From positions 806,001-870,000 of the forward strand of contig NZ_CP063400.1 in assembly GCF_021729865.1 (NCBI RefSeq): DNA of 64,000 bases. Direction: 5' to 3'. The stretch's first letter is position 1; each line of letters opens with the position of its first letter. Origin of the DNA: Hydrogenophaga sp. SL48. Its GTDB lineage: Bacteria; Pseudomonadota; Gammaproteobacteria; Burkholderiales; Burkholderiaceae_C. Below are positions 2,089 to 20,406 of this stretch, piece by piece. The position numbers and the translations under genes were made by a program. Below the pieces are notes generated by a model. The model did not search any database and was not told the DNA's origin. It saw only the letters and a list, made by a program, of their open reading frames with translations.

Positions 2089-2915
2089 ATCCCGCCGTGG
2101 CGCCCTCGCTGCCCCTGCACCTGCTGCGTGCGCTGCGCGCGGTGGTGGGTCGCGAGTTGAACCGCTTCTTGCGCCAGCCCACGCGCCTGGGCTCGGCGCT
2201 GGTGCGGCCGCTGCTGTGGTTCGTGGTGTTTTCGGCCGGCTTCAACAACGTGTTCGGCGTCGCCATCGTGCCGCCCTACGAGACCTACATCGAATACAAG
2301 GCCTACATGGTGCCCGGCCTGCTCGGCATGGTCGCCCTGTTCAACGGCATGCAGAGCTCGCTCTCGATGGTCTACGACCGCGAGATGGGCGTGATGCGCC
2401 TGCTGCTCACCGCGCCGCTGGCGCGCGGCTGGCTGCTGGCCTTCAAGCTGCTCGCGGGCACCTGCCTCTCGGTGCTGCAGATGGGGGTGTTCCTCGCGAT
2501 CGCCTGGGCCTTTGGGGTGGAGGTGCCGCTGGCCCACCTGCCGGGCCTGCTGGTCGCCATGGCCTGTGGCGCCACCATGCTCGCCGCGTTGGGGCTGATG
2601 CTCTCGGTGTACGTGAAGCAGCTGGAGAACTTTGCCGGCACGATGAACTTCGTGATCTTCCCCATGTTCTTCATCAGCCCCGCGCTGTACCCGCTGTGGA
2701 AGCTCGAAGAATCGGGCGCGTGGTGGCTGCTGAAACTCGCCGAGTGGAACCCCTTCACCCACGCGGTCGAGGCGATGCGCTATGCGCTGGTGGGGCAGTT
2801 CACGGCGCTGTCGTGGGCAGTGGTGGTGGGCTGCGGTGTGGTGTTTTTTGTGGCGGCGCTCTGGGGGTACGACCCGCAAAGAGGCTGGGTCAAGAGCAAG
2901 GGAGGTGGCGGATGA
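2070..2915 (+). CDS. pedC: ABC-2 type permease of the PQQ alcohol dehydrogenase system (PedC-like)
   Basis: This 281-residue inner-membrane protein has about six hydrophobic segments and the ABC-2 layout. There is a cytoplasmic N-terminus with RELNRFLRQPTRLG, then a first helix near residues 46-65, a YDREMGVMRLLLTAPL loop, and a last helix before the basic C-terminus. Its position between the binding protein and the SoxYZ-like gene matches ped/exa clusters. It probably forms an ABC exporter or importer serving quinoprotein maturation; the substrate is unknown. It overlaps the genes on both sides, so it belongs to a coupled operon. Confidence 0.87.
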   Translation: MQSAAVNPAVAPSLPLHLLRALRAVVGRELNRFLRQPTRLGSALVRPLLWFVVFSAGFNNVFGVAIVPPYETYIEYKAYMVPGLLGMVALFNGMQSSLSMVYDREMGVMRLLLTAPLARGWLLAFKLLAGTCLSVLQMGVFLAIAWAFGVEVPLAHLPGLLVAMACGATMLAALGLMLSVYVKQLENFAGTMNFVIFPMFFISPALYPLWKLEESGAWWLLKLAEWNPFTHAVEAMRYALVGQFTALSWAVVVGCGVVFFVAALWGYDPQRGWVKSKGGGG

Positions 2916-3715
2916 GCCCGTTCATTCAACGCCGCCATCTGGTGGGCAGCGGCTTGATGGCTGCACTGCTGCCCGCTGCGCTGCGCGCGCAAGACGACCA
3001 GACCGGCGGCGATCCGCTCGGCTCCATGCAGTATCCCAGCCTTCGTGAGCAGACCATCGGCCAGGCCACGGCGAAGTTCTCCGACGCGGTGGTGATCAAA
3101 GGCCCGGCCTTTGCCGACGATGCGATGAACGTGCCGCTGCTGGTGGACGCGCGCGCGCTCGACAAGGTGGGCGGCGGTGTCGCGCGCATCCGCGTGGCGG
3201 TGGACCGCAACCCGGTGCGCCAGGTGCTGGACTTCGAACCCCTGCGTGCGCTGCCCATGCTGGCCTTTCGCATCCGAATGGAGCAGGCCTCGCCGGTCCG
3301 TGCGTTCGTGCAGACCCAAGACGGCCAGTGGCATGTGGGCAGCACCTGGGTGCAGGCGGCGGGCGGCGGCTGCACGGTGCCCGGCCTCACGCGCGCCGAC
3401 GGTTCCTGGAGCAAGACCCTGGGCCAGGTGCAGGCGCGCTTCTTCAACAACGTGCTCGAAGGCAGCCGGCGCCTGCGCGTGCGCGTGATGCACCCCATGG
3501 ACACCGGCCTGGTCGCGGGCATTCCGGCCTTCTACATCGAAGACCTGCAACTGGTGGACGGCGCTGGCCAGGCATGGTGGAAGCTGTCGCTGCACGAGCC
3601 GGTGTCGGAGAACCCGATCATCACCTTCGAGCTGCCGCCGCAGGCGGTTCCGGGCCTCCGGGTCGTCGGTCGCGACAACAATGGCAACCGCATCGACGCG
3701 GAGGTGGGCGCGTGA
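2912..3715 (+). CDS. Quinoprotein-associated SoxYZ-like carrier protein
   Basis: This 267-residue exported protein has a twin-arginine-like or Sec leader (QRRHLVGSGLMAALLPAALRA) followed by a fused SoxY-like and SoxZ-like pair. The SoxY-like half ends near residues 151-154 with GGGC, comparable to the carrier cysteine motif of SoxY. The second half contains the beta-strand-rich SoxZ-type fold with FFNNVLEGSRRLRVRVMHPMDTG. Such fusions occur with PQQ dehydrogenases and are thought to act in a quinoprotein relay, although their cargo is unproven. ATG at 2912 overlaps the permease stop (ATGA), and the next gene begins within its last codons. Confidence 0.85.
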   Translation: MSPFIQRRHLVGSGLMAALLPAALRAQDDQTGGDPLGSMQYPSLREQTIGQATAKFSDAVVIKGPAFADDAMNVPLLVDARALDKVGGGVARIRVAVDRNPVRQVLDFEPLRALPMLAFRIRMEQASPVRAFVQTQDGQWHVGSTWVQAAGGGCTVPGLTRADGSWSKTLGQVQARFFNNVLEGSRRLRVRVMHPMDTGLVAGIPAFYIEDLQLVDGAGQAWWKLSLHEPVSENPIITFELPPQAVPGLRVVGRDNNGNRIDAEVGA

Positions 3716-4695
3716 AGCGGCTGCTGTGTTGCATTGCGTTTGCGCTCGCAAGCGCCTCGCAGGCGCAGACCATCGCTGTGCCACCGATGGCCGCCAAGCC
3801 AGACGCGGCCACCTTCAACTACGACCTGAAGCCGCGCCAGATCGCCGACGGCACCTGGGTCATCGAAGGCGCGGTGCAGGACTTCAGCCGCGCCAACGGC
3901 TGCAACATCATCAACACCGCCTTCATTGCCACCGGCGCGGGCGTGGTCGTCATCAACACCGGGCCGTCGCGCGGGTATGGCGAGCAGCAGCGCCGCGCCA
4001 TCGAGCGCATCACGCGCGAACCGGTGCAACGCGTGCTGGAACTCAACCTGCACCCCGACTACTTCTTCGGCAACCAGGCCTGGGCCGACCGGCCCACGCA
4101 GGCGCTGGCCGGCAGCATCGCCGGCATGCAGGCCGAAGGCACGGCCTACGCCGACAACCTCTACCGACTCTGCGGCGACTGGATGCGTGGCACCGAGTCC
4201 ACGCCCGCGCGCGAGGCCGTCTTGCCGCAGACCCTGCAGGTCGGCATCCACAAGCTGGAACTGATGCGCCTGCACGGCCACACCGCCGACGATCTGGTGG
4301 TGCTTGACCGCCACACCGGCGTGCTGTTCGCGGGCGGGCTGGTGTTTGCCGAGCGCGTGCCGACCACGCCGCACGCCGACTTCGCGGCCTGGCTGGCCAG
4401 CCTGGATGCGCTGGAGCGGCTCATCACCAGTGGCCAGGTGAAGACCGTGGTGCCCAGCCACGGCCCGGTGCACAGCGGGCTGGCCGGCGTGCAGCAGACG
4501 CGCGACTGGCTGCAGTGGCTGACCACGCTCATGCAGTCCAGCGCCGAGCGCGGGCTCGATCTGGGCGAGGTGCTGCGCACGCCCGTGCCCGAGCGCTTCG
4601 CGCGCTGGGCCGCGCAACCCGCCGAGCTGCACCGCTCGCTCACGCAGTGGTACCCGCGCTACGAGCAGCGCGTGCTGGCTGCGCCAGCGAAGTGA
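3712..4695 (+). CDS. Quinoprotein relay metallohydrolase 1 (SoxH-like, degenerate metal site)
   Basis: This 327-residue secreted metallo-beta-lactamase-fold protein has a GTG start overlapping the SoxYZ-like stop (GTGA) and a signal peptide ending near SASQAQ. The fold is recognisable from VVVINTGPS, GHTADDLVVL and PSHGPVHSG. The canonical HxHxDH metal motif is replaced by N112-L-H114-P-D116-Y117, and the usual Asp of the DTG motif is Asn, so two or more ligands are missing. It may bind one metal or none. Members of this family accompany SoxYZ-like carriers in PQQ loci. It is the last gene before the dehydrogenase promoter. Confidence 0.82.
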   Translation: MKRLLCCIAFALASASQAQTIAVPPMAAKPDAATFNYDLKPRQIADGTWVIEGAVQDFSRANGCNIINTAFIATGAGVVVINTGPSRGYGEQQRRAIERITREPVQRVLELNLHPDYFFGNQAWADRPTQALAGSIAGMQAEGTAYADNLYRLCGDWMRGTESTPAREAVLPQTLQVGIHKLELMRLHGHTADDLVVLDRHTGVLFAGGLVFAERVPTTPHADFAAWLASLDALERLITSGQVKTVVPSHGPVHSGLAGVQQTRDWLQWLTTLMQSSAERGLDLGEVLRTPVPERFARWAAQPAELHRSLTQWYPRYEQRVLAAPAK

Positions 4696-4943: not shown

Positions 4944-6665
4944 GTGAAACGCACCCTATTGAGCCTTTTGGTCATGGCCGCCACGGCCCACGTTGGCGCC
5001 CAGGGCGTCACCGACGCGATGATCGCCAACGACGCCGCCACGCCCGACAACGTCCTGAGCTGGGGCCTGGGCACCCAGGGCCAGCGTCACTCGCCGCTGA
5101 CAGGCGTCAACGCCAAGAACATCAGCAAGCTGGTCCCCGTGTGGTCCATGTCGTTCGGTGGCGAGAAGCAGCGCGGCCAAGAGTCGCAGCCGCTGGTGAA
5201 CAAGGGCAAGATGTTCGTCACCGCGTCCTACTCGCGCATCTTTGCGCTGGACTCCAAGACCGGCAAGAAGCTCTGGAAGTACGAGCACCGCCTGCCCGAG
5301 GGCATCATGCCCTGCTGCGACGTGATCAACCGCGGCGCCGCGCTGTACGACAACCTCGTCATCTTCGGCACGCTGGACGCCCAGCTCGTGGCCCTCGACC
5401 AGGACACCGGCAAGGTGGTGTGGCGCGAGAAGATCGACGACTACTCTGCCGGCTACAGCTACACCGCCGCCCCGCTGATCGCCGAAGGCCTGCTCATGAC
5501 CGGCGTGTCCGGCGGTGAGTTCGGCGTGGTCGGCCGCGTGGAAGCGCGCGACCCCAAGACCGGCAAGATGGTCTGGACGCGTCCCGTGGTCGAAGGCCAC
5601 ATGGGCTACAAGGACGGCAAGGAAAACGGCATCACCGGCACCACCAACGCCACCTGGCCCGGGGACACCTGGAAAACCGGTGGCGCCGCCACCTGGCTGG
5701 GCGGCAGCTACGACGCCAAGACCGGCCTGGCCTATTTCGGCACCGGCAACCCCGGCCCCTGGAACAGCCATGTGCGCAAGGGCGACAACCTGTATTCCAC
5801 CTCCACCGTCGCCATCGACGTGAAGACCGGCCAGATCAAGTGGCACTACCAGTCGACCCCGAACGACGGCTGGGACTACGACGGTGTGAACGAGTTCATC
5901 ACCTTCGACATGGACGGCAAGCGCGTCGGCGCGAAGGCCGACCGCAACGGTTTCTTCTATGTGAACGACGCCGAAACCGGCAAGCTGCTGAACGCCTTCC
6001 CCTTCGTGAAGAAGGTGACCTGGGCCACCGGCATCGACCTGAAGACCGGCCGTCCGAACTTCGACCCGGCCAACCGCCCTGGCGACCCGACGGCCGCGGG
6101 TGGCGACGGCGCCAAAGGCAAGTCGGTGTTCTCGGCGCCCGGCTTCCTGGGCGGCAAGAACCAGATGCCCATGGCCTACAGCCCCAAGACCGGCCTGTTC
6201 TACGTGCCCACCAACGAATGGGGCATGGAGATCTGGAACGAACCCATCACCTACAAGAAGGGCGCCGCCTACCTGGGCGCGGGTTTCACCATCAAGCCGC
6301 TGTTCGACGACCACATCGGTTCGCTGCGCGCCATCAACCCCAAGACCGGCAAGGTCGAGTGGGAAGTCAAGAACGAGGCTCCGCTCTGGGGTGGCGTGCT
6401 GACGGCCGGCGACCTGGTGTTCTGGGGCACGCCTGAGGGCTACCTCAAGGCCGCCGACGCCAAGACCGGCAAGGTGGTGTGGCAGTTCCAGACCGGCTCC
6501 GGCGTGGTGGCCCCTCCCATCACCTGGACCGAAGGTGGCGAGCAGTACGTCTCGGTCGTGTCCGGCTGGGGTGGCGCGGTGCCGCTGTGGGGCGGTGAAG
6601 TGGCCAAGAAGGTCAACTTCCTGGAGCAGGGCGGCTCGGTCTGGACCTTCAAGATCGCTAAATAG
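4944..6665 (+). CDS. exaA: PQQ-dependent alcohol dehydrogenase, lanthanide-type signature
   Basis: This 573-residue periplasmic quinoprotein oxidises primary alcohols to aldehydes and passes electrons to a cytochrome c. The GTG start at 4944 is chosen because a signal peptide follows ([19 protein letters not shown]). It has eight-bladed propeller repeats ([24 protein letters not shown]), vicinal cysteines C124-C125 that form the disulfide over PQQ, and catalytic Asp311 in GWDYDG. Asp313 two residues on is the extra metal ligand of lanthanide enzymes such as XoxF and PedH; calcium enzymes have Ala or Ser there. There is no C-terminal heme domain, so this is a type I enzyme needing a separate cytochrome. 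The gene has its own sigma-54 promoter and is followed by a cytochrome gene. Confidence 0.95.
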
Positions 6666-6745: not shown

Positions 6746-6829
6746 CTGGGTGGGACTCTTGGCATCCTCTGCCGCGTCTGAGTTCCACCCTTTTTGTTTT
6801 CTCTGTTTACTGATTTGTGAGTTGTGATC

Positions 6830-7153
6830 ATGCGTACCCTTCTTCTCCTCACCTCCGGCCTCCTGCTCGCTTCGGGCGCTGCGCACGCGGTCGACGAGGC
6901 GGCCGCCATCGAGCTGGCCAAGAACAACGGTTGCCTGTCGTGCCATTCGGCCAAGGAAAAAATCGTCGGCCCCGCCTACAGCACCGTCGCCGACAAGTAC
7001 CGGGACGACAAGGACGCCGTGGCGAACCTGGTCCAGTCCATCCAGTACGGCAGCAAGGGCAAGTGGGGCCGCATCCCCATGCCGCCACACCCGGGCATGA
7101 ACGCCGCCGACATCAAGACCCTGGCCCAATGGGTGATGACCGCCAAACACTGA
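6830..7153 (+). CDS. Class I cytochrome c (c-551-like)
   Basis: This 107-residue secreted monoheme cytochrome has a signal peptide ending GAAHA, a heme-binding CLSCH, and a distal Met in the IPMPPHPGM region. ATG at 6830 is preferred to GTG at 6824 because the signal peptide is then well formed. The position right behind the alcohol dehydrogenase suggests it is the electron acceptor or the next carrier in that chain (inference). Its length and motif spacing fit the cytochrome c551/c552 family. Its 3' end overlaps a possible start of the next gene. Confidence 0.88.
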   Translation: MRTLLLLTSGLLLASGAAHAVDEAAAIELAKNNGCLSCHSAKEKIVGPAYSTVADKYRDDKDAVANLVQSIQYGSKGKWGRIPMPPHPGMNAADIKTLAQWVMTAKH

Positions 7154-7875: not shown

Positions 7876-8532
7876 ATGACAACACCAAACCCCTTCAAGA
7901 CCCTGAACCGCCTGGCACTGGCCCTCGGCTGCCTGGCCTCTGGCGCCGCCTGGGCCCAGGTCACCGTGGTGGTCACCCCGCCGGTGGTGGTCCAGCCGGT
8001 ACCGACCCAGCCCGTGGCGTCTGCGCGGCAGCAGGAAATGGCCGTGCAACTGGCCCGGGCCAACCTTTCTCAGCAAGGCGTCACCGAACCCACCACCGCC
8101 CAGCTCGCGCTGGCCACGAGCGATGTGCAGGCGATGCGCGACACCGGCATGGGCTGGGGCCAGATCGCCAACAGCCTGGGCTTGCGCCTGGGCTCGGTTG
8201 TCAGCGCCGCGAACAAGGCGGACAAGGCCGACAAGGCGGATCTGCGGGCCGAAGCCGGGACCACCAGCAAGCGCCCGGCATCGGCCGGCAGCCAGGGGGC
8301 CAGCGGCAACAAGGGAACGGGTGGCAGCAGCAACGGCGGCGGTCAAGGTGCCGGCAGCGGCGGCAACAAGGGCGGCGGCGCCAGTGGCGGTGGCGGCGGT
8401 AGTGCCGGCAATGGTGGCGGCAACGGGGGTGGAAAGGGCGGTGGAAATGGAGGCGGAAACGGCGGCGGGGGCGGAAAAGGTGGCGGGAATGGCGGAGGCA
8501 ATGGTGGTGGCAACGGCGGGGGCAAGCGCTGA
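7876..8532 (+). CDS. Secreted glycine/asparagine-rich low-complexity protein
   Basis: This 218-residue protein has an AGGAG ribosome site 5 bases before ATG 7876 and a signal peptide ending GAAWAQ. Residues 30-110 form a compact soluble region (SARQQEMAVQLARANLSQQGV, then MGWGQIANSLGLRLG), and the rest, from about residue 130, is Gly/Asn/Lys repeats of the GGGNGGGK type. Proteins with this helical head and Gly-rich tail are common in Burkholderiales but have no assigned function. The reverse strand reads as a long polyproline frame, which is an artefact of the repeat. Confidence 0.75.
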   Translation: MTTPNPFKTLNRLALALGCLASGAAWAQVTVVVTPPVVVQPVPTQPVASARQQEMAVQLARANLSQQGVTEPTTAQLALATSDVQAMRDTGMGWGQIANSLGLRLGSVVSAANKADKADKADLRAEAGTTSKRPASAGSQGASGNKGTGGSSNGGGQGAGSGGNKGGGASGGGGGSAGNGGGNGGGKGGGNGGGNGGGGGKGGGNGGGNGGGNGGGKR

Positions 8533-8710: not shown

Positions 8711-9406
8711 TCACCGGCGGTCGTCGTCCTTGTCGTCATCGTCCACACCGTCGTCTTCGCCATCCTCGTCATCGTCATCGTCATCGCTGCCGTCGTCAGG
8801 GCAGCTTGACTTGACGGCTGTGTCGCAACCGTCGTCGTCATCCTTCTCATCGCCTTTGTCGTCCTCGCCATCGTCGGCGTCCGATCCTTCGACCTTCACC
8901 TGGCTGGCCACCATCACACCGTTGTTGACGGTTCCGTGGACCTCCACATGCATGCCGACCGACAGCGTGGTTGGCGTGGCGCTGGCGTCGACCGGGATGC
9001 CATCGACGCTGAAGCTGGACGGGCTGGTGTACGACGTCACGCGGCCTTCCAGTTCGCTCGATTCGGTGCCGTTGTCATCCCCGTCATGGTCGTCGTCCAG
9101 CTCGACACGGCGGGCTTGCAGGACGCCATTGACCATGTCGCCTTGAACTTCGACCCGGCTTCCGGTGGCCAATCCCTGCGGTGCTGTGCTGGAGCCGCTG
9201 GCGTCCACCTGGATGCCGTCGACACTGAAGCTCTGGGGGTTGTCGTAGGCGGTCACGGTGCCTTTGAACGACTTGGCACTGGTGGTGGTGCTGCTGTCGC
9301 CACCACCGCCACCGCAGGCGGTCAGCCCGGCAACCAGCAGCGAGGCGGCCACCATCCGCACCGATGTCAAGGGGAAATGGGAGGCGGGGTCGTGGGGATT
9401 CTTCAT
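8711..9406 (-). CDS. Lipoprotein with two DUF5666-like domains and Asp-rich tail
   Basis: This 231-residue lipoprotein has a lipobox LVAGLTAC followed by GGGGGD. Two repeats of about 65 residues follow: KSFKGTVTAYDNPQSFSVDG with VQGDMVNGVLQARRVEL, and LEGRVTSYTSPSSFSVDG with VHGTVNNGVMVASQVKV. They match the DUF5666 OB-like pattern. From about residue 180 the protein is almost only Asp, Glu, Gly and Lys, interrupted by two Cys, and ends DDDDKDDDRR. Such a tail would bind cations. Its function is unknown. The gene is convergent with the Gly-rich protein gene, and the 178-base gap between them shows no clear terminator. Confidence 0.75.
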   Translation of the reverse strand: MKNPHDPASHFPLTSVRMVAASLLVAGLTACGGGGGDSSTTTSAKSFKGTVTAYDNPQSFSVDGIQVDASGSSTAPQGLATGSRVEVQGDMVNGVLQARRVELDDDHDGDDNGTESSELEGRVTSYTSPSSFSVDGIPVDASATPTTLSVGMHVEVHGTVNNGVMVASQVKVEGSDADDGEDDKGDEKDDDDGCDTAVKSSCPDDGSDDDDDDEDGEDDGVDDDDKDDDRR

Positions 9407-9658
9407 GATGGGTTGTCTCTGGCTTGGATGTGAACGACGCAAGGGCTAAAACGCGTCGGCCAGCAACGAATCTGTGCCGACAACTTCATGTTCCAAATCA
9501 CCGATTAAGACAAGCTTAAGGGCCGGTTTTGCTTGCGCGGTTTACGTTTTGCAACGCGAAGCCCAACGGGTTTTCCGACGGCCGTTGAAGCCGCCTTGCG
9601 GCGTTCCGCTGATCGCGTGAGACGCCGGGCACCTGCCTGAATGCGAAGCGCTGGGCGG

Positions 9659-10345
9659 TCAGCGCACCCACTCTGCCTGCAACAGGCCTCCGGTCAGAAA
9701 CCCGCTCGGCACCCGCTCCTCTCGCTGCAACTTCAGCAGCCCTTCGCCCAGGCAATACCACTCGCGGCTGATCAGCGGGACGTCGGTGAAGCCGTTGACC
9801 GGGTCGGTGTAGAGGTTCAGGCGCGCCTGGCCGACCACGCGCAGGCAGGGCTGGTGTTCGCTGCCGTCGGCGAGCTTCACGCTGTCGTCCACCGCTTCGA
9901 TGCGCCAGGTCATCTGTGCCTTGTGGGTGTACTTCAGGTCGCGCGGGTGTTCGTTCTTGCGCTGCAGCAGGTAGGGCACGGTGACGGTGGTCCACTCGGT
10001 GCCGACCTGGTAGGGTGCCTTGAGCACCCAGACGGGTTCGGCATCGGCCGTGGGCTGATTGTCGATGTCGGTGCGGGTGGCCACGCGGCGCACACCCTGC
10101 TCATCCACCTTGAGGTAGTAGCTCACGCCGGCCGAGTGGTGGCGCACGGCGACGGGCTGGTCCTGGAAGGTTTCGGGTGCGCTCACGCGCATCGTCCAAG
10201 TCTCGGGCTCGCGTGGCTCGTCCAAGGTGTAGGTGACGGCGAGGGTCTGCTCGCTGCCTTCGCGCAGGGGGAACCACTCATTGCCCATGTCGCGACCAGA
10301 GCACCCCGACAGCAAGGCCACCGCCAACCAGGCAACGGGCGCCAT
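9659..10345 (-). CDS. Lipoprotein of unknown function, distal gene of the pqq operon
   Basis: This 228-residue product starts at ATG 10345, giving a lipoprotein leader with lipobox LLSGCS. The mature protein is beta-strand-rich: WFPLREGSEQTLAVTYTLDE, then repeated paired strands with WTMRVSAPETF and YYLKVDEQGVRRVATRT. I do not recognise a named family. It follows the ExbB/ExbD-like genes on the same strand but is separated from the nearest by 134 bases filled with a dispersed element, so cotranscription is likely but not certain. It may be the outer-membrane-side partner of that module (inference). Confidence 0.7.
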   Translation of the reverse strand: MAPVAWLAVALLSGCSGRDMGNEWFPLREGSEQTLAVTYTLDEPREPETWTMRVSAPETFQDQPVAVRHHSAGVSYYLKVDEQGVRRVATRTDIDNQPTADAEPVWVLKAPYQVGTEWTTVTVPYLLQRKNEHPRDLKYTHKAQMTWRIEAVDDSVKLADGSEHQPCLRVVGQARLNLYTDPVNGFTDVPLISREWYCLGEGLLKLQREERVPSGFLTGGLLQAEWVR

Positions 10346-10386
10346 CCAAATGGCGGCACCGGAGCGCGTGTCCGAAACACAGTCGC

Positions 10387-10476
10387 ACCGTGGAACCGGC
10401 TTCGCCGGGCCACAGGAGCGGTCCCCCTCCCGCCGCAGGCGAGAGAGGGGGAAGACGCGAAGCGGCGCAGGGGGTG
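10387..10476. repeat. Stop-anchored dispersed GC-rich element
   Basis: It contains GTGGAACCGGCTTCGCCGGG followed by GGTCCCCCT, AGGGGGAAGACGCGAAGCGG and CGCAGGGGG. It ends 3 bases before the stop codon of the minus-strand gene at 10480, with the G-rich end next to the stop as in the other copies. Confidence 0.75.
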
Positions 10477-10479
10477 TCA

Positions 10480-11004
10480 TCACTTCTCCGGCAACTGCGC
10501 GCGTGGCAGATCGCGCAGCTTGATCTCGACCTTGTCGTTGCTGGCAGGTCTCAACCAGGCCAGGCCGCCCTGGCCCCGGCGCGGTTCGGTTTCGCCCAGC
10601 TGCGTGTTGCCGTCGCGCGCCTTCTTGACGCCGTCGCCGAGGATGCGGTGCAGGTCTTTTTCGTAGGGCAGCTTGAAGGCGCGGGGCATCTCCAGCGGCT
10701 GGTTGTCTTTCATGGGGTTGACCCAGAGGTAGATCGCGCCCTTGTGGCCGCGCCCGGGGCTGGGTTCGTCGAACACCGCCGAGAGCAGCACGAAGCGCTG
10801 GGGCAGTTGGTCTTCGGCCGGCCAGCCCGAGACGCCTGTGAAGGTCTGGTGCCCGAAAGCGTAGAAGCCGCTGACCAGCAGAACCATCGCGGCCTTCAGG
10901 CCCCAGTGCCAGCGCGTGCCCAGGCACAGGGCGAGCAGCAGAAAGGCCAGCAGCGCGTAGACGAGGGCGAGCAGCAAGAGCTGCGAGGAAACGGCAGGGA
11001 TCAT
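10480..11004 (-). CDS. Small membrane protein of unknown function in the pqq operon
   Basis: This 174-residue protein has two hydrophobic helices, at about residues 8-29 (LLLLALVYALLAFLLLALCL) and 35-50 (LKAAMVLLVSGFYAFG). A soluble C-terminal domain follows, with QRFVLLSAVFDEPSPG, GAIYLWVNPM and MPRAFKLPYEKDLHR. I do not recognise the family. It starts 23 bases after the ExbD-like gene and shares its strand, so it is probably a subunit or accessory of the same envelope complex. The C-terminal half has no cysteines and no evident catalytic motif. Confidence 0.7.
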   Translation of the reverse strand: MIPAVSSQLLLLALVYALLAFLLLALCLGTRWHWGLKAAMVLLVSGFYAFGHQTFTGVSGWPAEDQLPQRFVLLSAVFDEPSPGRGHKGAIYLWVNPMKDNQPLEMPRAFKLPYEKDLHRILGDGVKKARDGNTQLGETEPRRGQGGLAWLRPASNDKVEIKLRDLPRAQLPEK

Positions 11005-11027
11005 GGGTGCTTGTTCTTCTCGGTGAA

Positions 11028-11639
11028 TCAGAGTCCCGTGCGCTGCACGATGGTTTTGGGCTGTGTGCTGAGGTCGGTCACAGTGCCGCTTTCGTCGAGC
11101 GTGAATCGAACCAGGGTGCGCTCGTCGCCCTTGCGCGGGATCTGCTGGGTGCCGGTGAACACGATCTCGGCCTGCGGGTTGACCTTCACCACCGCCACGC
11201 TCACGTCCACCGGCTGCTGGTCTTTGCTGTCGTAGTAGTGGGCGTTGACCACGTACTCGCCGGGCACGATGCCGCGCAGGGTGACGATCTCCTGCCGGAT
11301 GGGGCTGCTGAACTCGCGGCCGTTCACCAGCACGCTGCTGTTCTTGGCGCCGCGGTCGTCGCGGTCGAGGTGCAGCAGACCGGCGTCGCGCTGGCGAAAC
11401 CAGAGCGTCTTGCCGCCGGGCTCCATGACCCAGGCGTCCACGTCGTTGGGGTTGTTGTCGGGCCACGAGACGGTGACCATGAACTCGGCCTTGGCCGGCA
11501 CGTCGCCGGCCTTGCGCGCGTTGGGGTTGAAGGCGAGGATGGCGATGACGAAACAGAAGACGAAGGCGATCAACATGTTGAACAACATGTCGTAGAACGG
11601 ATCGGTCTCCGTGTCACGGACCGGTCGGCCGATCGCCAT
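11028..11639 (-). CDS. ExbD/MotB-like proton-channel subunit with periplasmic beta-sandwich domain
   Basis: This 203-residue protein has one N-terminal membrane helix with TDPFYDMLFNMLIAFVFCF. Asp17 occupies the position of the essential proton-accepting Asp of ExbD, TolR and MotB. Instead of the usual ExbD or peptidoglycan-binding OmpA domain, residues 50-180 form a beta-rich domain (VTVSWPDNNPNDVDAWVMEP, WFRQRDAGLLHLDRDDRG, GEYVVNAHYY). It resembles YfaP/DUF2135-type domains. It overlaps the ExbB-like gene by 26 bases. The combination suggests an ion-driven motor complex linked to pqq; its cargo is unknown. Confidence 0.72.
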   Translation of the reverse strand: MAIGRPVRDTETDPFYDMLFNMLIAFVFCFVIAILAFNPNARKAGDVPAKAEFMVTVSWPDNNPNDVDAWVMEPGGKTLWFRQRDAGLLHLDRDDRGAKNSSVLVNGREFSSPIRQEIVTLRGIVPGEYVVNAHYYDSKDQQPVDVSVAVVKVNPQAEIVFTGTQQIPRKGDERTLVRFTLDESGTVTDLSTQPKTIVQRTGL

Positions 11640-12363
11640 CGCTCGCTCCGTCGGACGTCAGGGAAAGCGCCAGCGCATCGGCCACCAGCGCGTCGGCAAA
11701 ACGGTCCAGCCGCATGAGCTGCAGACCCAGCAGGATGTTGCCGGTGAGCCCGGTCACGGTGGTGAGCAGCGCGATGCCCAGGCCGCCGGTCAGGCTCTTG
11801 AGCAGCTGGGCCGACTGGCTGGGGTCGAAGCTCTCCAGCTGGCCGAGGTTGAGCGCGAGGATGGAAAAGCCGATCACCTTGCCCAGCAGACCCAGCTTGA
11901 GCTGGATGCCGTTGAGCCACCAGGCCATTTCGTGCGGGCCGTGCGCGCGCTCGCCCAGCACCAGCAGCCACGAGGCGCGGTCGGCGCCGGGCTGCGCCGT
12001 GCCCTGCAGGAATTCACCGCTCCAGCTGCCAGCGTGTTGCGCCTGATCGAGCGCCGTGCGTTGGCGGCCCAACACCCAGGCGCGCCGCCCGGCCCAGCCC
12101 GAGCAGCCGATGAACATCAGCACGATCACGATCGTGAGCCGTGTCGGGTCGGCCTCGATCAGCCGGTGCCAGGCGCCCGCCTGCCAGAGCAGCAGCGAAG
12201 CAAAGACCAGCAGCCCCATGAAGGCCAGCCAGAGCAGGAACAGGCCCTGGTCGGTGCGTTCGATGGAGAGCGGCGCGCGCCGGCTGCCCGGCAGGTGACG
12301 CACCACCAGTGCGCCGAACATGCGGTGGGCTGAGTGGGCCTGGGGTGCTGGAGGCGAACTCAT
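11614..12363 (-). CDS. MotA/TolQ/ExbB-like proton-channel protein in the pqq operon
   Basis: This 249-residue inner-membrane protein has four predicted helices, at about 41-61, 70-90, 155-173 and 188-212. The last pair carries the family signature GGLGIALLTTVTGLTGNILL preceded by NGIQLKLGLLGKVIG, as in TolQ, ExbB and MotA. It begins one base after the pqqE stop, so cotranscription and possibly translational coupling with PQQ synthesis are strongly indicated. With the adjacent ExbD-like protein it would form a proton-driven 5:2 type motor. No TonB or receptor gene is adjacent, so the driven partner is unknown. Confidence 0.8.
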   Translation of the reverse strand: MSSPPAPQAHSAHRMFGALVVRHLPGSRRAPLSIERTDQGLFLLWLAFMGLLVFASLLLWQAGAWHRLIEADPTRLTIVIVLMFIGCSGWAGRRAWVLGRQRTALDQAQHAGSWSGEFLQGTAQPGADRASWLLVLGERAHGPHEMAWWLNGIQLKLGLLGKVIGFSILALNLGQLESFDPSQSAQLLKSLTGGLGIALLTTVTGLTGNILLGLQLMRLDRFADALVADALALSLTSDGASDGDRPTGP

Positions 12364-12364
12364 C

Positions 12365-13522
12365 TCATGCCGCCGGATGCAGCAACCGCGACTCTGCGTC
12401 GCTGCGGAACACGATGGGGATGTTCCGGCGTTTGGGTGCGTCTCGAACCACCGCCACCACCTTCTCGTGGTGGGCCGACTTGCTGCACACCGGGTCGGTC
12501 TCGGCCGCGTCGCCGGTGAGCAGAAAGGCCTGGCAGCGGCAACCGCCGAAGTCCTTTTGGCGTTCGTCGCAGCTGCGGCAGGTGGGTTTCATCCACGCGT
12601 CGCCGCGGTAGGTGTTGAAGGCGTTGCTGCGCTGCCAGATGTCGGCGATGGACACATCTTTCACGTTGGGCAGCTGCAGGCCCGGCAGGTCGCGCGCGTT
12701 GTGGCAGGGCATGGCCAGGCCATCGGGCGCGATGGAGAGGAACACCGCGCCCCAGCCGTTCATGCAGGCCTTGGGTCGCTCTTCGAAGTAGTCGGGCACG
12801 ACGAAGAGCACGCGGCATTTCTGGCCCGTGGTCTTCGCGTCCTGCTCGGCGCGGAAGGCGTTGACCTCGGCCTCGGCGACCTGCAGCTCTTCGCGCGTGG
12901 GCATGAGGTGGTCGCGGTTGATCCAGGCCCAGCCGTAGTACTGCGTGTTGGCCAGCTCCAGGTACTCGGCCTCCAGCGCCACGGCCATCTCGATGATCTT
13001 GCGCACGTGCGGCAGGTTGTGGCGGTGCAGCACGCAGTTCATCACCATGGGCCAGTCGTGCTGCTTGATCAGCTTCGCGACGCGCTGCTTGAGTTCGAAG
13101 GTCTTGGTGTGGCTCAGGAAGTCGTTCAGCTCCTTGGTGGAGTCCTGGAACGAGAGTTGCACGTGGTCGAGCCCCGCGTCTTTCAGCTTCTGCGCGCGGG
13201 TGGGGGTGAGGCCCACGCCGGAGGTGATGAGGTTGGTGTAGTAGCCCAGGCGGTGCGCTTCCTGCACCAGCTCTTCGAGGTCGTCTCGCAGCAGCGGCTC
13301 GCCGCCCGAGAAACCCAGTTGCGCCGCGCCGAGTTTTCGCGCCTGCGTCATCACGTCCACCCACTGCGCGGTGCTCAGCTCGTCGGTCACTTTCGCGTGC
13401 TGCGTGGGGTTGTAGCAAAACACGCAGTGCAGCGGGCACTTGTAGGTCAGCTCCGCCAGCAGCCACAGGGGTGGGCCAGCGGCGATGGGGGTGGTGCTCA
13501 GGAGGTCAGTCGATCCAGCCAC
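12365..13522 (-). CDS. pqqE: PqqE, radical SAM peptide cyclase for PQQ synthesis
   Basis: This 385-residue enzyme forms the Glu-Tyr carbon-carbon bond in PqqA, with PqqD as peptide chaperone. The radical SAM cluster motif is C29-PLH-C33-VF-C36. A C-terminal SPASM region carries further cluster cysteines (CHNA, CRSCDERQKDFGGCRC). A GTG start at 13522 overlaps pqqD by 17 bases, and the product length fits the family. The gene is followed at once by the ExbB-like gene. Confidence 0.97.
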   Translation of the reverse strand: MAGSTDLLSTTPIAAGPPLWLLAELTYKCPLHCVFCYNPTQHAKVTDELSTAQWVDVMTQARKLGAAQLGFSGGEPLLRDDLEELVQEAHRLGYYTNLITSGVGLTPTRAQKLKDAGLDHVQLSFQDSTKELNDFLSHTKTFELKQRVAKLIKQHDWPMVMNCVLHRHNLPHVRKIIEMAVALEAEYLELANTQYYGWAWINRDHLMPTREELQVAEAEVNAFRAEQDAKTTGQKCRVLFVVPDYFEERPKACMNGWGAVFLSIAPDGLAMPCHNARDLPGLQLPNVKDVSIADIWQRSNAFNTYRGDAWMKPTCRSCDERQKDFGGCRCQAFLLTGDAAETDPVCSKSAHHEKVVAVVRDAPKRRNIPIVFRSDAESRLLHPAA

Positions 13523-13769
13523 GGCGTTGCCCCTCTTCCAAAAGCGACTGGACCTGAGGCATCAGGTCTTGTGCGCTGAACGCCTGCTCCAACTCGCTCA
13601 CAATCTCGGTCAGGCTGCGCTGGCCATCGCATCGTTTCAAAATTTCGGCGGCGCTGTCGTTGAGCTGCACCATGCCCTCGGGATACAGCAGCACCCAGCG
13701 GCTCTGCGCCTCTTCGTACTGCAGGCGGAAGCGGCGCGAGAGCTTGGGTTGGTTCGGGAGCGTGCTCAT
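13506..13769 (-). CDS. pqqD: PqqD, PqqA-binding chaperone
   Basis: This 87-residue protein is of the PqqD/RRE fold that holds the PqqA peptide for PqqE. Recognisable segments are [35 protein letters not shown] and [15 protein letters not shown] at 13769 overlaps the pqqC stop by four bases, and its end overlaps pqqE. It is encoded as a free-standing protein, not fused to PqqC or PqqE as in some species. Confidence 0.95.
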
Positions 13770-14515
13770 TGACACGCTTTCTCGATGGCATCCAGCATGG
13801 TCCAGAGGATGTCCAGCTTGAACTGCAGGATGTCCAGCGCACGGTGCTGTTGTTCGCGGGTCTTGAAGTGGTCCAGCGTGACCTGCAGGCCGTGCTCCAC
13901 GTCGCGGCTGGCGAGCGGGATGCGGCTGCGGAAATAGGCCAGGCCGCTGGCCTCGATCCATGGGTAGTGGCCGGGCCAGGTGGCGAGGCGGTCTTTGTGG
14001 ATCTGCGGCGCGAACATCTCGGTGAGCGAGGAACACACGGCCTCCTGCCAGGGCGCCTTGGCCGCGAAGTTCACGTAGGCGTCGCAGGCGAAGCGCACCG
14101 CGGGCACCACGCCCTGCAGCGACCAGAGGTCCTCACGCGAAATGCCCACGGCCTCGCCCAGGCGCGTCCAGGCCTCGATGCCGCCGGCGGCCGAGCCCTC
14201 GAAGTCGCCATGGCCGTCGTGGTCGAGGATGCGCTCGATCCACAGGCGGCGGTGCGCTCGGTCGGGCATGTTGGCGAGGATGGCCGCGTCTTTGCGCGGG
14301 ATGCAGATCTGGTAATAGAAGCGGTTGGCCACCCAGCAGCGCAGCTCGTCGGGCGTGCAGCCTCCCGCGTTCATGCGCACGTTGAACGGGTGGTGGATGT
14401 GGTAACTGCGGCCCTTCTCGCGCAGCTGCGCCTCGAACTCGGCGGGGCTCCAGGCGGGCAGGTGGCTGTCGGTGCGGATGGCTTGGGCGATTTCCAAGAT
14501 CAGGTTCCTATGCAA
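13766..14515 (-). CDS. pqqC: PqqC, pyrroloquinoline-quinone synthase
   Basis: This 249-residue cofactorless oxidase catalyses the last ring closure and eight-electron oxidation to PQQ. Conserved stretches include [38 protein letters not shown] and [14 protein letters not shown]. Length and start fit the family. It is separated from pqqB by 107 bases holding a dispersed element, but shares its direction, so pqqB and pqqCDE may be one transcript with partial termination in between. Confidence 0.97.
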
Positions 14516-14549
14516 ACGGGTTGTTCAAGCAATGCCTTGCCCAGCGCAC

Positions 14550-14622
14550 GCCGTGGAACCGGCTTTGCCGGGCCACTGGTGTGGTCCCCCTGTAGGGGGA
14601 AGGCGCGAAGCGGCGCAGGGGG
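14550..14622. repeat. Stop-anchored dispersed GC-rich element between pqqB and pqqC
   Basis: It contains GTGGAACCGGCTTTGCCGGG, GGTCCCCCTGTAGGGGG, CGCGAAGCGGCGCAGGGGG. It ends directly at the pqqB stop codon (tca at 14623 on the plus strand). It is nearly identical to the copies at 55061 and 59083. Confidence 0.8.
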
Positions 14623-15540
14623 TCATATCTCAATGCTCATACCGTCGTGGGCGACCTCGATGCCGTGCGCGGTGAGTTCTACGCGTTCATCGGAGTCTTC
14701 CACCAGCATGGGGTTGGTGTTGTTGATGTGGATGAGGATCTTGCGAACGCCTGCTGGCAACTTGTCGAGCTGTTCGATCATCCCGCCCGGGCCGCTTTGC
14801 GGCAGGTGACCCATGTCGAGCGCGGCCTTGGTCGAGAGGCCCAGGCGCTGCATTTCGTCGTGGGTCCAGAAGGTGCCATCGACCAGCACCACACTGCAGC
14901 CGCTCATGAGCTCGATGAGTTCGGGCGTGACCTCGGCCAGGCCGGGTGCGTAGAACGCCTTGCTCCCGGTGGTGGGGTGGGTGATCAGCAGGCCGATGTT
15001 GTCGCCCGGGCGCGGGTTGCCACGGAAGGGCGAGTAGGGCGGCGGCTTGGACGACAGCGAGACCGTGTGCAGCAGCAAACCGGGCAGGCTGGGCACCCGC
15101 ACCGCGCTGCCGTCGATGGGCAGCTCCTGGCGGTCCACGCCGCAGTAGTGCGAGAGGATGCCGGTGATCGGGAAGCCGCTGGAAATGTCGGAAAACACCT
15201 CGGGCGTGGCCAGCAGCGGCAGCGGCGTCTTGCGCTCGCGCAGCATCAGCAGGCCGGTGACGTGGTCGATCTGCGCATCCATCAGCAGCACGGCGGCGAT
15301 GCCGCTGTCGCGGATGGCGCGGGCGGGCTGCAGCTCCGGGTTCTCGCGGACCTGCTGGAGGATGTCGGGCGAGGCGTTGACCAGCAGCCAGTCAGTCCCG
15401 TCGGCGCTGACCGCGATGGACGATTGGGTTCGCGCGGTGGCGCGGACCGTGCCCTGGCGCAGGCCGTCACAGTTGGGGCAGTTGCAGTTCCATTGCGGAA
15501 AGCCACCGCCGGCCGAAGAACCCAGGACCCGGATGCGCAT
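14623..15540 (-). CDS. pqqB: PqqB, metallo-beta-lactamase-fold PQQ synthesis protein
   Basis: This 305-residue protein of the PqqB family acts as a hydroxylase on the diamino acid intermediate before PqqC. Typical motifs are the N-terminal MRIRVLGSSAGGGFPQWNC with CNCPNC as a zinc-binding knuckle, MDAQIDHVTGLLMLRE, and DGTFWTHDEM near residue 210. It lies 98 bases after pqqA, behind a hairpin that probably limits readthrough. Confidence 0.97.
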   Translation of the reverse strand: MRIRVLGSSAGGGFPQWNCNCPNCDGLRQGTVRATARTQSSIAVSADGTDWLLVNASPDILQQVRENPELQPARAIRDSGIAAVLLMDAQIDHVTGLLMLRERKTPLPLLATPEVFSDISSGFPITGILSHYCGVDRQELPIDGSAVRVPSLPGLLLHTVSLSSKPPPYSPFRGNPRPGDNIGLLITHPTTGSKAFYAPGLAEVTPELIELMSGCSVVLVDGTFWTHDEMQRLGLSTKAALDMGHLPQSGPGGMIEQLDKLPAGVRKILIHINNTNPMLVEDSDERVELTAHGIEVAHDGMSIEI

Positions 15541-15585
15541 AGACTGAGCTGGAACGTTTCAGGCGTTCAGGAAAGTAGGGGAATG

Positions 15586-15619
15586 AAAAAAGCGCACGCG
15601 TTGTGCACCCGTGCGCTTT
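15586..15619 (-). terminator. Intrinsic terminator/attenuator between pqqA and pqqB
   Basis: On the minus strand AAAGCGCACG pairs with CGTGCGCTTT across a 12-base loop and is followed by a run of T residues. Placed 20 bases after the pqqA stop, it would yield abundant pqqA transcript and less pqqBCDE, a known pattern in pqq operons. Confidence 0.85.
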
Positions 15620-15638
15620 GAAATGGAACCGCCGGTGG

Positions 15639-15713
15639 TCAGCGGTTGGCGATGTACATCGTGATTTCAAAACCGAAACGCAGGTCGGTGAAAGCGGGGG
15701 TGGTCCACTGCAT
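15639..15713 (-). CDS. pqqA: PqqA, PQQ precursor peptide
   Basis: This 24-residue ribosomal peptide starts [17 protein letters not shown] and carries the invariant Glu-X3-Tyr (E16-ITM-Y20) whose side chains become PQQ. An AGGAG ribosome site sits 6 bases before ATG 15713. It is the first gene of the pqq operon and lies divergent from an alpha/beta hydrolase gene. Confidence 0.96.
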
Positions 15714-18061: not shown

Positions 18062-20230
18062 TCACAACAGCCCCGGGGGGAGCTGATCCTTCTTCCGGTA
18101 GATCGTGTTGCGCGACACCCCCAGCGCCTTCGCCGCTGCCGACACATTGCCCTTGTGCAGGCGCAGCATCTGCGCCATGGCGCTCAGCGCCACGTCCTGC
18201 AGGCGCTGGCCGTCCACCGCCGGTTCGGGCATGGGCGGTGCATTCGGCATCTCGGGCAGCGTGGTCGTCGCCGGGGTGATGGCGCCCATCAGGCGGTTCG
18301 GAATGGGGTTGGGCAGACCGTGCTCCAGCTCTTCGATGAAGTCGTCGGGCAGGTGCTCCATCTCGATCACGCCGTCGTTGCCCACCATGACCACCGCCGT
18401 GCGCAGCAGGTTGTGCAGCTGGCGGAAGTTGCCCGGCCAGTGGTAGCGCTTGAAGATGTCCATGACCCGCGCGGAGATGCCGATGTGCTGGCCGTTCTCG
18501 CAGAGCGCCTTCACGATCTTCTGCACCACGAGGTCGAAGTCGGTGCGCTCGCGCAGCGCCGGCAGCCGCACCACCAGGCCGTTGAGGCGGTAGTACAGGT
18601 CTTCGCGGAAGTCACCGCGCGCGATCATGTCTTTCAGGTTCTTGTGCGTGGCGCTGACCACTGCCACGTCCACGTCCACTTCCTTGCCCGCGCCGAGCGG
18701 GCTCACCTTGCGCTCCTGCAGGACGCGCAGCAACCGCGCCTGCAGGTGCTTGGGCATGTCACCGATTTCGTCGAGGAAGAGCGTGCCGCCGTTGGCCTGC
18801 AGGATCTTGCCGATCGAGCCCTTCTTGCGCGCGCCGGTGAAGGCCCCTTCCTCGTAGCCGAACAGCTCCGACTCGATCAGGTTGTCGGGAATCGAGGCGC
18901 AGTTGACCGAGACGAAGGGCTGACCGGAGCGCGTCGAGTCGCCGTGGATGGCCTGGGCCAGCAGGTCTTTGCCGGTGCCGGTTTCGCCCAGGATCATCAC
19001 CGGGATGTCACGCCCCGACACCCGGCGCAGCTTGTGGATGACCGACGCCACCTGGGGGTCGCCGGTGTCCAGGTACTGCAGCGAGGACAGCTGCATCTTG
19101 CGCCCGGTCTGCTTCAGCAACGCGGGCACCGAGCTCGCAGACGCCGTGGGTGCCTGCTGCTCTTCGGCCTGCTGCGGGTTCGCCGCCATGGGCCGCCCGG
19201 CCGACCAGGGGTTGCTCGCCTTGACCTTCACCCGGCACCAGACCGACACGCCGTTGTGCAGCACCAGCTGCTTGGGGTTGGGCATGGCGCCGCTGAACAG
19301 CTCGAACAGCGAGGAGATCGGGATGCCGAACAGCGACGAGAAGGTGTGGGCCTTGAGCGCGGCGAAGGGCAGGCCGATCTGGAACTGCGCGCTGCGGTTG
19401 GCCGAGATGAAGCGCCCCTCGGGCGAGAACACCGCGATGCCTTCGACCAGCGTGCCGAGAAACTCGGAGCGGGTGTGGAAATGCACCCGGATCGCCTTCG
19501 GGAAGATGTCGGCGAACATGTGGTTCTCGATCATCTGCGCCGACATGCGCACCAGCGCCAGCGTGTGCTGGTGGAAGCTGCGGTGGTCACCCGTGACGTC
19601 GAGCGCGCCGATCACCTGGCCGTAGGGATCGAAGATGGGCGCGGCGGAGCAGGTGAGGAACTTGTTGGCGTTCAGGTAGTGCTGGTTGCCGTGCACGGTG
19701 AGCGCTTCTTCTTCGGTCAGCGCGGTGCCGATGGCGTTGGTGCCCTTGTTGCGCTCGGACCAGTCCATGCCGGGGGTGAGCGCCACACGCGAGGCTTTTT
19801 CGAGGAAGTCGGTGTCGCCCAGCGAGTGCAGCACCATGCCCTTGGCCGAGGTCAGCAGCACCATGCTGTGGGTGTTGACGATCTGGTCGTAGAGCGTTTC
19901 CATGACCGGTGCCGCGTGCTGGAACAGGAAGCGGTTTTCATCCAGGGCGTCGGTCAGGATGCCGCGCGAGGGGCTGGTGAAGTCGGGTTCGCTCTGTTCG
20001 GTGATGCCGTAGGCACGCGAACGCTGGTGAGACTGGCCGATCGGGTCGTGACCGGCGGGGGAGAGGGCCGGTGGCGGAGTGTCGGCTCGCTCACCGCCGG
20101 GGCGGGTGTACATGGCGGCACTCATGTTGTCTCCAGAGTCCGAGGGGAATCCCCCCCAGTAGTCCATGGTCCAGTTCGGATCTTGTGATTCGCCCTGGGG
20201 AGGAACGTCGTTGTGTGGTTCGTGAGTCAT
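18062..20230 (-). CDS. Sigma-54-dependent AcoR-type transcriptional activator
   Basis: This 722-residue regulator has a GAF-type sensory domain at about residues 100-240 (KGTNAIGTAL, CSAAPIFDPYGQVIGALD) and a PAS-like linker at 255-335. The AAA+ domain spans 380-610, with Walker A GETGTGKD at 415-422, the sigma-54 contact loop GAFTGA at 462-467 and Walker B LFLDEIGD. A Fis-type HTH lies at the C-terminus (GNVSAAAKALGVSRNTIYRK). This is the AcoR/ExaE-like layout that senses alcohols, aldehydes or ketones. ATG 20230 is preferred to an upstream GTG. It is the likely activator of the sigma-54 promoters at 4814 and 20478. Confidence 0.93.
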   Translation of the reverse strand: MTHEPHNDVPPQGESQDPNWTMDYWGGFPSDSGDNMSAAMYTRPGGERADTPPPALSPAGHDPIGQSHQRSRAYGITEQSEPDFTSPSRGILTDALDENRFLFQHAAPVMETLYDQIVNTHSMVLLTSAKGMVLHSLGDTDFLEKASRVALTPGMDWSERNKGTNAIGTALTEEEALTVHGNQHYLNANKFLTCSAAPIFDPYGQVIGALDVTGDHRSFHQHTLALVRMSAQMIENHMFADIFPKAIRVHFHTRSEFLGTLVEGIAVFSPEGRFISANRSAQFQIGLPFAALKAHTFSSLFGIPISSLFELFSGAMPNPKQLVLHNGVSVWCRVKVKASNPWSAGRPMAANPQQAEEQQAPTASASSVPALLKQTGRKMQLSSLQYLDTGDPQVASVIHKLRRVSGRDIPVMILGETGTGKDLLAQAIHGDSTRSGQPFVSVNCASIPDNLIESELFGYEEGAFTGARKKGSIGKILQANGGTLFLDEIGDMPKHLQARLLRVLQERKVSPLGAGKEVDVDVAVVSATHKNLKDMIARGDFREDLYYRLNGLVVRLPALRERTDFDLVVQKIVKALCENGQHIGISARVMDIFKRYHWPGNFRQLHNLLRTAVVMVGNDGVIEMEHLPDDFIEELEHGLPNPIPNRLMGAITPATTTLPEMPNAPPMPEPAVDGQRLQDVALSAMAQMLRLHKGNVSAAAKALGVSRNTIYRKKDQLPPGLL

Positions 20231-20406
20231 GTGATTTTCTTCATATCTGTGCCACGAATCAACACTGGGTATTCCCCGAGTGAAACAGTGTGTGGCAGTT
20301 GCCTCGATCTGGTACACAAGCAAATCGCCGGCCATGCGCAGAGGGGCCGATCTGGCCGGACAAAGCCACGTGGGCTGTCACAGTCGGTCCATGTGGCACA
20401 GCGGTG

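Follow-up and report, generated by a model that had tools for sequence, protein, structure and literature searches.

A conserved ExbB/ExbD-like four-gene module associated with lanthanide-type quinoprotein alcohol dehydrogenases in Hydrogenophaga sp. SL48 and its relatives

The stretch of DNA analysed here, called the window below, comprises 64,000 nucleotides of Hydrogenophaga sp. SL48 (contig NZ_CP063400.1, positions 806,001 to 870,000 of the forward strand; coordinates in the text are counted from its first letter) and belongs to a genome consisting of a single contig of 5.43 Mb. On its reverse strand, genes for the synthesis of pyrroloquinoline quinone (PQQ) are followed by a module of four genes, two of which resemble the ExbB and ExbD components of envelope motors. 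The PQQ genes are pqqB (14623-15540, TIGR02108 over cut-off), pqqC (13766-14515, TIGR02111 over cut-off), pqqD (13506-13772, TIGR03859 with 101.8 bits for a cut-off of 46) and pqqE (12365-13522, TIGR02109 with 511 bits for a cut-off of 381), all four assigned by the NCBIfam equivalog cut-offs; the peptide of 24 residues encoded at 15639-15713, read by eye from the sequence and the list of open reading frames with no profile scan, has an E..Y motif and we take it to be the product of pqqA. After a gap of 1 base, pqqE is followed by a gene for an ExbB/TolQ/MotA-like membrane protein of 249 residues (11614-12363) with the pore motifs GLLGK(162)VIGF and ALLTT(202)VTG, and then, with an overlap of 26 bases, by a gene for an ExbD-like protein of 203 residues (11028-11639), in which one N-terminal transmembrane helix carrying an Asp at residue 17 (D17) precedes a DUF2135-like beta domain. 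The third gene encodes a small membrane protein of 174 residues (10480-11004) with one clear and one possible transmembrane helix and a conserved C-terminus ending in QLPEK, for which no Pfam or NCBIfam family was matched. The fourth encodes a lipoprotein (9659-10480), whose Cys is residue 60 when the longest frame is translated, with the mature part at 9662-10303 and an uncertain true start. All these genes lie on the reverse strand, and their coordinates confirm the order and spacing given in the original prediction, which had been made from the sequence alone.

To describe the distribution of the module, a sample of 200 genomes of the family of the window genome (itself included) was searched with the ExbB-like protein, and the module was found in 31 of them, the window genome being one. 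The surroundings were fetched for all 30 other module genomes (the sampled loci) and for 80 named loci, which are the best 80 of at least 547 matches, are biased to near relatives and in some cases repeat genomes of the sampled 30; some of these 110 loci end at contig edges, so that all flank counts are lower bounds. The four genes were contiguous and in the same order in 30/30 sampled relatives, which rules out that they owe their appearance to chance or to a misread frame. The block was also contiguous in 79 of the 80 named loci, the exception being L082, in which the lipoprotein was not detectable. Among the matches listed, the closest named ExbD-like sequences are from Hydrogenophaga and are 99% identical.

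Taken alone, the ExbB-like protein of the window matches the MotA_ExbB family (PF01618) with 14.9 bits, below the cut-off of 22.9, and it is not one of the six matches of a genome-wide PF01618 search. The same profile is matched by all 28 aligned ExbB-like members (E at most 1, best 2.3e-9), the alignment (A2) holding 28 of the 31 sequences since three with unclear starts (L042, L046 and L049) were left out. These profile matches bear out the assignment as a MotA/TolQ/ExbB-like gene and point to a homology that is distant but real. An ExbD-like partner with the channel Asp had also been predicted. D17 is invariant in 31/31 members and its motif DPFYD falls in register with the PFID containing the channel Asp of 18 genuine ExbD proteins; however, the hhalign comparison is weak (E 0.012, probability 3.5%; none of 30 column shuffles reached this E, the best being 0.026) and ExbD (PF02472) is not among the families listed for the 31 members at E at most 1. 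The further suggestion of a YfaP/DUF2135-like periplasmic domain is supported by profile comparison with eight DUF2135 proteins, which gave an hhalign probability of 96.3% and an E of 1.8e-9, the best of 30 shuffled controls being 0.0041. These eight proteins came from ten fetched loci and were also picked up by the ExbD-like profile at E at most 10 (one at 2e-5, seven from 0.015 to 9.2). In a plain Pfam scan, DUF2135 (PF09906) appeared weakly and below threshold in 7/31 ExbD-like members (best E 0.0038) and the RbmA FnIII model weakly in 10/31 (best 0.0035), and the window protein alone had no DUF2135 match. The module's domain and the DUF2135 proteins keep the same register over the core SW..DxDxWVxDPxG, but in the module the domain is anchored by the ExbD-like helix and lies inside a motor operon.

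The lipoprotein was aligned in 75 sequences plus that of the window (alignment A3), out of 105 lipoproteins recognised by a loose lipobox pattern. Among the families listed, the best match of its predicted model is a YmcC-like beta fold with low TM-scores of 0.37-0.38 and about 10% sequence identity, which was also the outcome when the model was considered for the OmpA-like peptidoglycan-binding fold of Tol-Pal; a family outside that list may yet fit. The gene context also differs from that of the YmcC/GfcB-like lipoproteins, and a shared fold shows no function. None of the four proteins matched a TonB family in Pfam, a result that does not extend to the flanks.

To situate the pore residues, the ExbB-like protein was aligned with five paralogs of the ExbB/TolQ/MotA kind encoded in its own genome. 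K162 falls at the Thr of the G..GT motif and T202 at the second pore Thr, positions that presumably correspond to Thr148 and Thr181 in the numbering of E. coli ExbB. The window protein thus has the Thr181 equivalent (T202), and the Thr148 equivalent is replaced by K162. Asp25, Thr148 and Thr181 are called essential in one review (PMC12905483), and the pore threonines conserved in another paper (PMC12215075). In a midpoint-rooted tree of 133 distinct ExbB-like sequences of 144 loci, the Thr148-equivalent position is occupied by Lys in 91 and by Thr in 42. The Lys sequences form one clade with a local support of 0.62, whose sisters under this root are six Thr-type sequences (L060, L061 and L063-L066; parent support 1.0). 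The residue just before the channel Asp of the partner protein is Tyr in 102/102 Lys loci and in none of the 32 readable of the 45 Thr loci, a pairing that is one inherited change and not repeated covariation. The pore Lys may alter ion coupling, or the pore may work differently. In the loci L206, L207, L209, L212, L224, L225, L226, L228 and L229, the N-terminus of the ExbD-like protein is missing the channel Asp and the LFN that comes next is LFK; such distant relatives seem to have undergone further, different changes in the chemistry of the pore.

The original prediction described the module as part of the pqq operon, which holds in the window but not in general. Of the genes queried, PedC stands directly upstream of the module most often, in 16 of the 30 sampled loci. 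The place is taken by a metallo-beta-lactamase-type gene in 4 loci, by pqqE in 3, by a distant PqqB-like gene in 3, by a receptor in 1 and by PqqB in 1, and in 2 by none of the genes queried. Anywhere in the flanks, pqqE was seen in 7/30 sampled loci. The check named in the original prediction, whether the four genes occur without pqq genes in most related genomes, goes largely against a general tie to the pqq operon: 23/30 sampled loci show no pqqE in the fetched flanks, pqqE is directly upstream in 3/30, and 7/31 module genomes have no pqqE over cut-off anywhere. In the named loci, pqqE lies directly upstream in 25/80, on contigs labelled Hydrogenophaga or otherwise assigned to beta- or gammaproteobacteria (for the most part to Comamonadaceae or Burkholderiales), including the more distant L141 and L143 (metagenome-assembled genomes of Burkholderiales and Oxalobacteraceae, respectively); it adjoins the module as well in L232, from another family of the order. 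In Hydrogenophaga pseudoflava (L071 and L073), a single locus combines pqqBCDE, the module, an ADH (quinoprotein alcohol dehydrogenase) and a PedC-type gene. The position in the pqq operon is a local arrangement and not a general feature of the module. No quinoprotein-system gene was seen in the flanks of 6 of the 110 loci.

The forward strand of the window carries ped-type importer genes and genes of a quinoprotein dehydrogenase system. A PedA2-type beta-propeller gene enters from the left edge (1-787; TIGR03866 with 260 bits over the part present, the whole-protein cut-off being 287) and is followed by genes for a PedA1-type substrate-binding protein of a lanthanide ABC importer (784-2088; TIGR03863, 428 bits for a cut-off of 413.6), a PedC-type ABC permease (2070-2915; TIGR03861, 333 bits for 241), a quinoprotein dehydrogenase-associated SoxYZ-like carrier (2912-3715; TIGR04557, 218.5 bits for 140), a quinoprotein relay system zinc metallohydrolase 1 (3712-4695; TIGR04558, 415 bits for 300) and a PedH-like quinoprotein alcohol dehydrogenase (ADH) of the methanol/ethanol family (4950-6665; TIGR03075, 754 bits, over cut-off). 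This ADH aligns best with 6zcw (804.8 bits) and 6zcv, and its motif GWDYDGVNE has the Asp common to 6zcw, 4mae and 6oc5, where 1flg has Ser. We take 6zcw to be PedH and 1flg to be a calcium-type enzyme, and by this alignment the window dehydrogenase carries the lanthanide-type Asp. An ADH was found near the module in 66 of the 110 loci, and among the 59 of them with a readable metal motif the residue is Asp in 56 and Ser in 3. Judged from its gene content, the whole stretch is a lanthanide-type ped cluster of which the four-gene module is one arm.

The association was also measured by genome, with raw Fisher tests on the sampled genomes in which relatedness is ignored. A quinoprotein ADH is present in 31/31 module genomes and in 49/169 others, a PedH-like ADH (at least 69% identity; G008, G046 and G138 represented by partial matches) in 28/31 and 19/169, PedA1 in 25/31 and 23/169 (called at E below 1e-90, since the curated TIGR03863 cut-off is passed by only 4 of the 200 genomes) and pqqE in 24/31 and 23/169. 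Among the ADH-bearing genomes, the strongest link is with PedH-likeness (odds ratio 14.7), the values for pqqE and PedA1 being about 5. The claim that the module belongs to a PQQ-dehydrogenase system is thus upheld by the presence of a quinoprotein ADH in all its bearers, and lanthanide uptake, offered as one option in the original prediction, gains from the PedH-like enzymes and from the position of PedC directly upstream. Since the module tracks lanthanide-type ADHs, and since PedA1A2BC is required for lanthanide-dependent growth of Pseudomonas putida at nanomolar lanthanum (PMC6839425), the module most likely serves lanthanide-dependent alcohol oxidation.

Beyond the family, a search with the ExbD-like alignment gave matches in 7/300 genomes of an order sample, 31/274 of a class sample and 14/299 of a phylum sample, which overlap and include the window and in which a few matches are weak. 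The trio of exbB-like, exbD-like and small membrane protein genes was seen in 36 of the 44 distant loci fetched. The lipoprotein is present in 6 of the 44 and an ADH in 6, the metal motif of which has Asp in all six, and both occur together in 5 (Fisher p 3e-5). In 14/44, the place of the lipoprotein after the trio is occupied by a vWA protein, and none of these 14 has an ADH in the flank; the one vWA protein scanned has vWA and FHA domains. The broader motor family seems to take the lipoprotein as its fourth part when it serves a dehydrogenase. In L193, L195, L197, L198, L200, L201, L203, L206, L207 and L209, genes for a YkuD L,D-transpeptidase and a DUF302 protein are followed by the trio and then by vWA; such YkuD/DUF302/vWA loci are a second, non-quinoprotein setting of the motor family. 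In L209 (8401-9508), two tandem genes similar to that of the small membrane protein were seen by eye between the ExbD-like and the vWA genes. In L224, L225 and L227 a metallophosphoesterase-like gene comes after the trio, with a protein-kinase-like gene in L224 and L225 as well (named by eye).

The comparisons show gene conservation, family relations, genome association, a predicted lipoprotein fold and pore substitutions. We tentatively propose that the products of the four genes form a motor of the cell envelope which is driven by ions and devoted to PQQ alcohol dehydrogenases of the lanthanide-dependent type, its most likely contribution being help in acquiring the lanthanide. We infer complex formation, ion coupling, ligand and direction from these comparisons. 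In such a motor, ExbD-like subunits, each with one transmembrane helix bearing D17, would be held in a ring of ExbB-like protein. Ions passing the pore would set the DUF2135-like domain in the periplasm in motion, and this motion would be transmitted by the small membrane protein and by the lipoprotein, presumed to sit in the outer membrane. The likeliest task would be to bring Ln(3+) or its chelate into and across the periplasm and to deliver it to PedABC and the dehydrogenase. In 7/30 sampled and 12/80 named loci, the strand of the module also carries a TonB-dependent receptor gene with similarity to the one receptor used as query, which fits transport. In L043, L053, L063, L065 and L066, a gene for a TctC/Bug-type binding protein and a TonB-dependent receptor gene come after the lipoprotein gene on the same strand.

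Several points weigh against this proposal. Most loci have no receptor on the same strand, and the one-receptor query found none in the window; neither a TonB family match among the four proteins nor a long periplasmic linker is visible that would carry force to the outer membrane. The Lys at the essential Thr148 position could mean a non-working or altered channel. A strong PedA1 match is missing in 6/31 module genomes, 19 genomes with a PedH-like ADH have no module, and shared ancestry is left uncorrected in the association statistics. Since an ADH is near the module in only 6/44 distant loci, the motor itself is not lanthanide-specific. Finally, the acidic motif LDRDDRG of the DUF2135-like domain is ruled out as a lanthanide adaptation, being family-wide (33/43 distant sequences; an ADH is nearby in 6).

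A somewhat unlikely alternative is a role in periplasmic maturation of the dehydrogenase, in which ion flow would aid insertion of the metal and/or PQQ into the apo-enzyme, or keep the enzyme folded, and would not drive metal transport through membranes. It would explain that the module tracks the dehydrogenase (31/31) better than PedA1 (25/31) and occurs both with and without PQQ synthesis. The vWA proteins MxaC and MxaL serve methanol dehydrogenase maturation, and the pairing of the distant trio with a vWA protein in 14/44 loci is therefore counted in its favor. In contrast, PedC directly upstream in 16/30 loci and same-strand receptors in 7/30 point to transport, and since quinoprotein ADHs are found in 49/169 module-less genomes, PedH-like in 19, the module is not generally needed for maturation.

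It is quite unlikely that the module energises the uptake or recycling of PQQ across the outer membrane. Seven of the 31 module genomes (G011, G030, G076, G087, G092, G110 and G194), with a completeness of 98-100%, have no pqqE over cut-off anywhere and yet keep a quinoprotein ADH; they are likely PQQ scavengers, which would probably import PQQ, but the other 24/31 make it. PqqU is the best NCBIfam match of one of the two neighbouring receptors tested, but far below cut-off (89 for 1200 bits); for the second, siderophore models are the better fit. In favor of this role, the pqqBCDE genes adjoin the module in Hydrogenophaga, L141, L143 and L232; against it, most loci show no receptor on the strand of the module. 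A device for PQQ secretion, which the original prediction had also considered, is ruled out as the main role by the same seven genomes.

The least probable of the alternatives, to which we give little weight, is a general envelope maintenance motor comparable to Tol-Pal and merely located in quinoprotein clusters: distant relatives do adjoin YkuD, DUF302, vWA or kinase-like and phosphoesterase genes with no ADH in the flanks, but within the family of the window 31/31 bearers have an ADH, 28 of them PedH-like, the block lies with quinoprotein genes in differing arrangements, and in the distant loci the lipoprotein follows the presence of an ADH.

Compared with known systems, the familiar part of the module is a motor of the ExbB/TolQ/MotA kind. 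It shares with ExbB-ExbD (Ton) and TolQ-TolR (Tol) the homology of the ring protein, an adjacent two-gene pair, a partner protein whose only helix contains an Asp, and the Thr181 equivalent, but differs from them by a DUF2135-like domain instead of the ExbD/TolR domain, by the absence of TonB or TolA among its four proteins, by two extra conserved partners and by the Lys that replaces the Thr148 equivalent in one clade. The window resembles PedA1A2BC and PedH of P. putida in its genes of the PedA1, PedA2 and PedC types and in the lanthanide Asp of its PedH-like ADH. The P. putida transporter section of a 2026 review mentions no ExbB/ExbD-like genes, and the passage of lanthanides through the outer membrane of this organism, which has no LutH receptor, is described there as unresolved (PMC12997753). 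PMC10848612 and PMC7589939 discuss ExbB/ExbD for TonB transport, and PMC11837500 and PMC6304351 are not about this module. Literature searches directed at such a module, in a collection with few subscription papers and no preprints, gave no account of ExbB/ExbD-like proteins paired within quinoprotein or lanthanide gene clusters. What is new in the module is its DUF2135-like partner, the presence of two additional proteins, the Lys in the pore and the association with dehydrogenases of the lanthanide type.

A more specific form of the lanthanide proposal, which we regard as unlikely as it stands, is a TonB-independent, ion-driven acquisition machine representing a new ExbB/TolQ/MotA branch, with Lys at an essential Thr position of the pore, Tyr beside the Asp of the partner, and a DUF2135-like domain and outer-membrane lipoprotein that would hand the lanthanide to PedABC and the dehydrogenase. 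If true, it would help to explain lanthanide uptake by non-methylotrophs without LutH. A motor-like operon that tracks lanthanide-type ADHs provides a short gene list for the question of lanthanide entry. It also extends the ExbB/TolQ/MotA superfamily by a branch whose partner domain is of a new kind and in which nature has replaced an essential residue of the pore, which makes it useful for studying the ion coupling of such motors.

Other genes of the window accompany the module to a variable extent. A sigma-54 activator with GAF, AAA and Fis HTH domains by Pfam (18062-20335, reverse strand) is often near it, in 22/30 sampled loci. Beside the dehydrogenase, a small c-type cytochrome-like protein (6824-7153, forward strand) has CLSCH in its sequence and no NCBIfam match, and a similar gene adjoins the dehydrogenase in relatives. 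Adjoining the module, a reverse-strand gene (8711-9442) encodes a protein that resembles a lipoprotein and has a DUF5666 domain and, at its C-terminus, a long tail rich in Asp, which is a conceivable binder of calcium or lanthanides; its relatives occur in 7/110 loci, namely six Hydrogenophaga-labelled contigs and L082. Finally, a forward-strand gene (7876-8532) encodes a secreted-looking protein with a very glycine-rich tail, for which no Pfam family was found at E at most 0.01 and the N-terminal part of which is similar in 6/110 loci.

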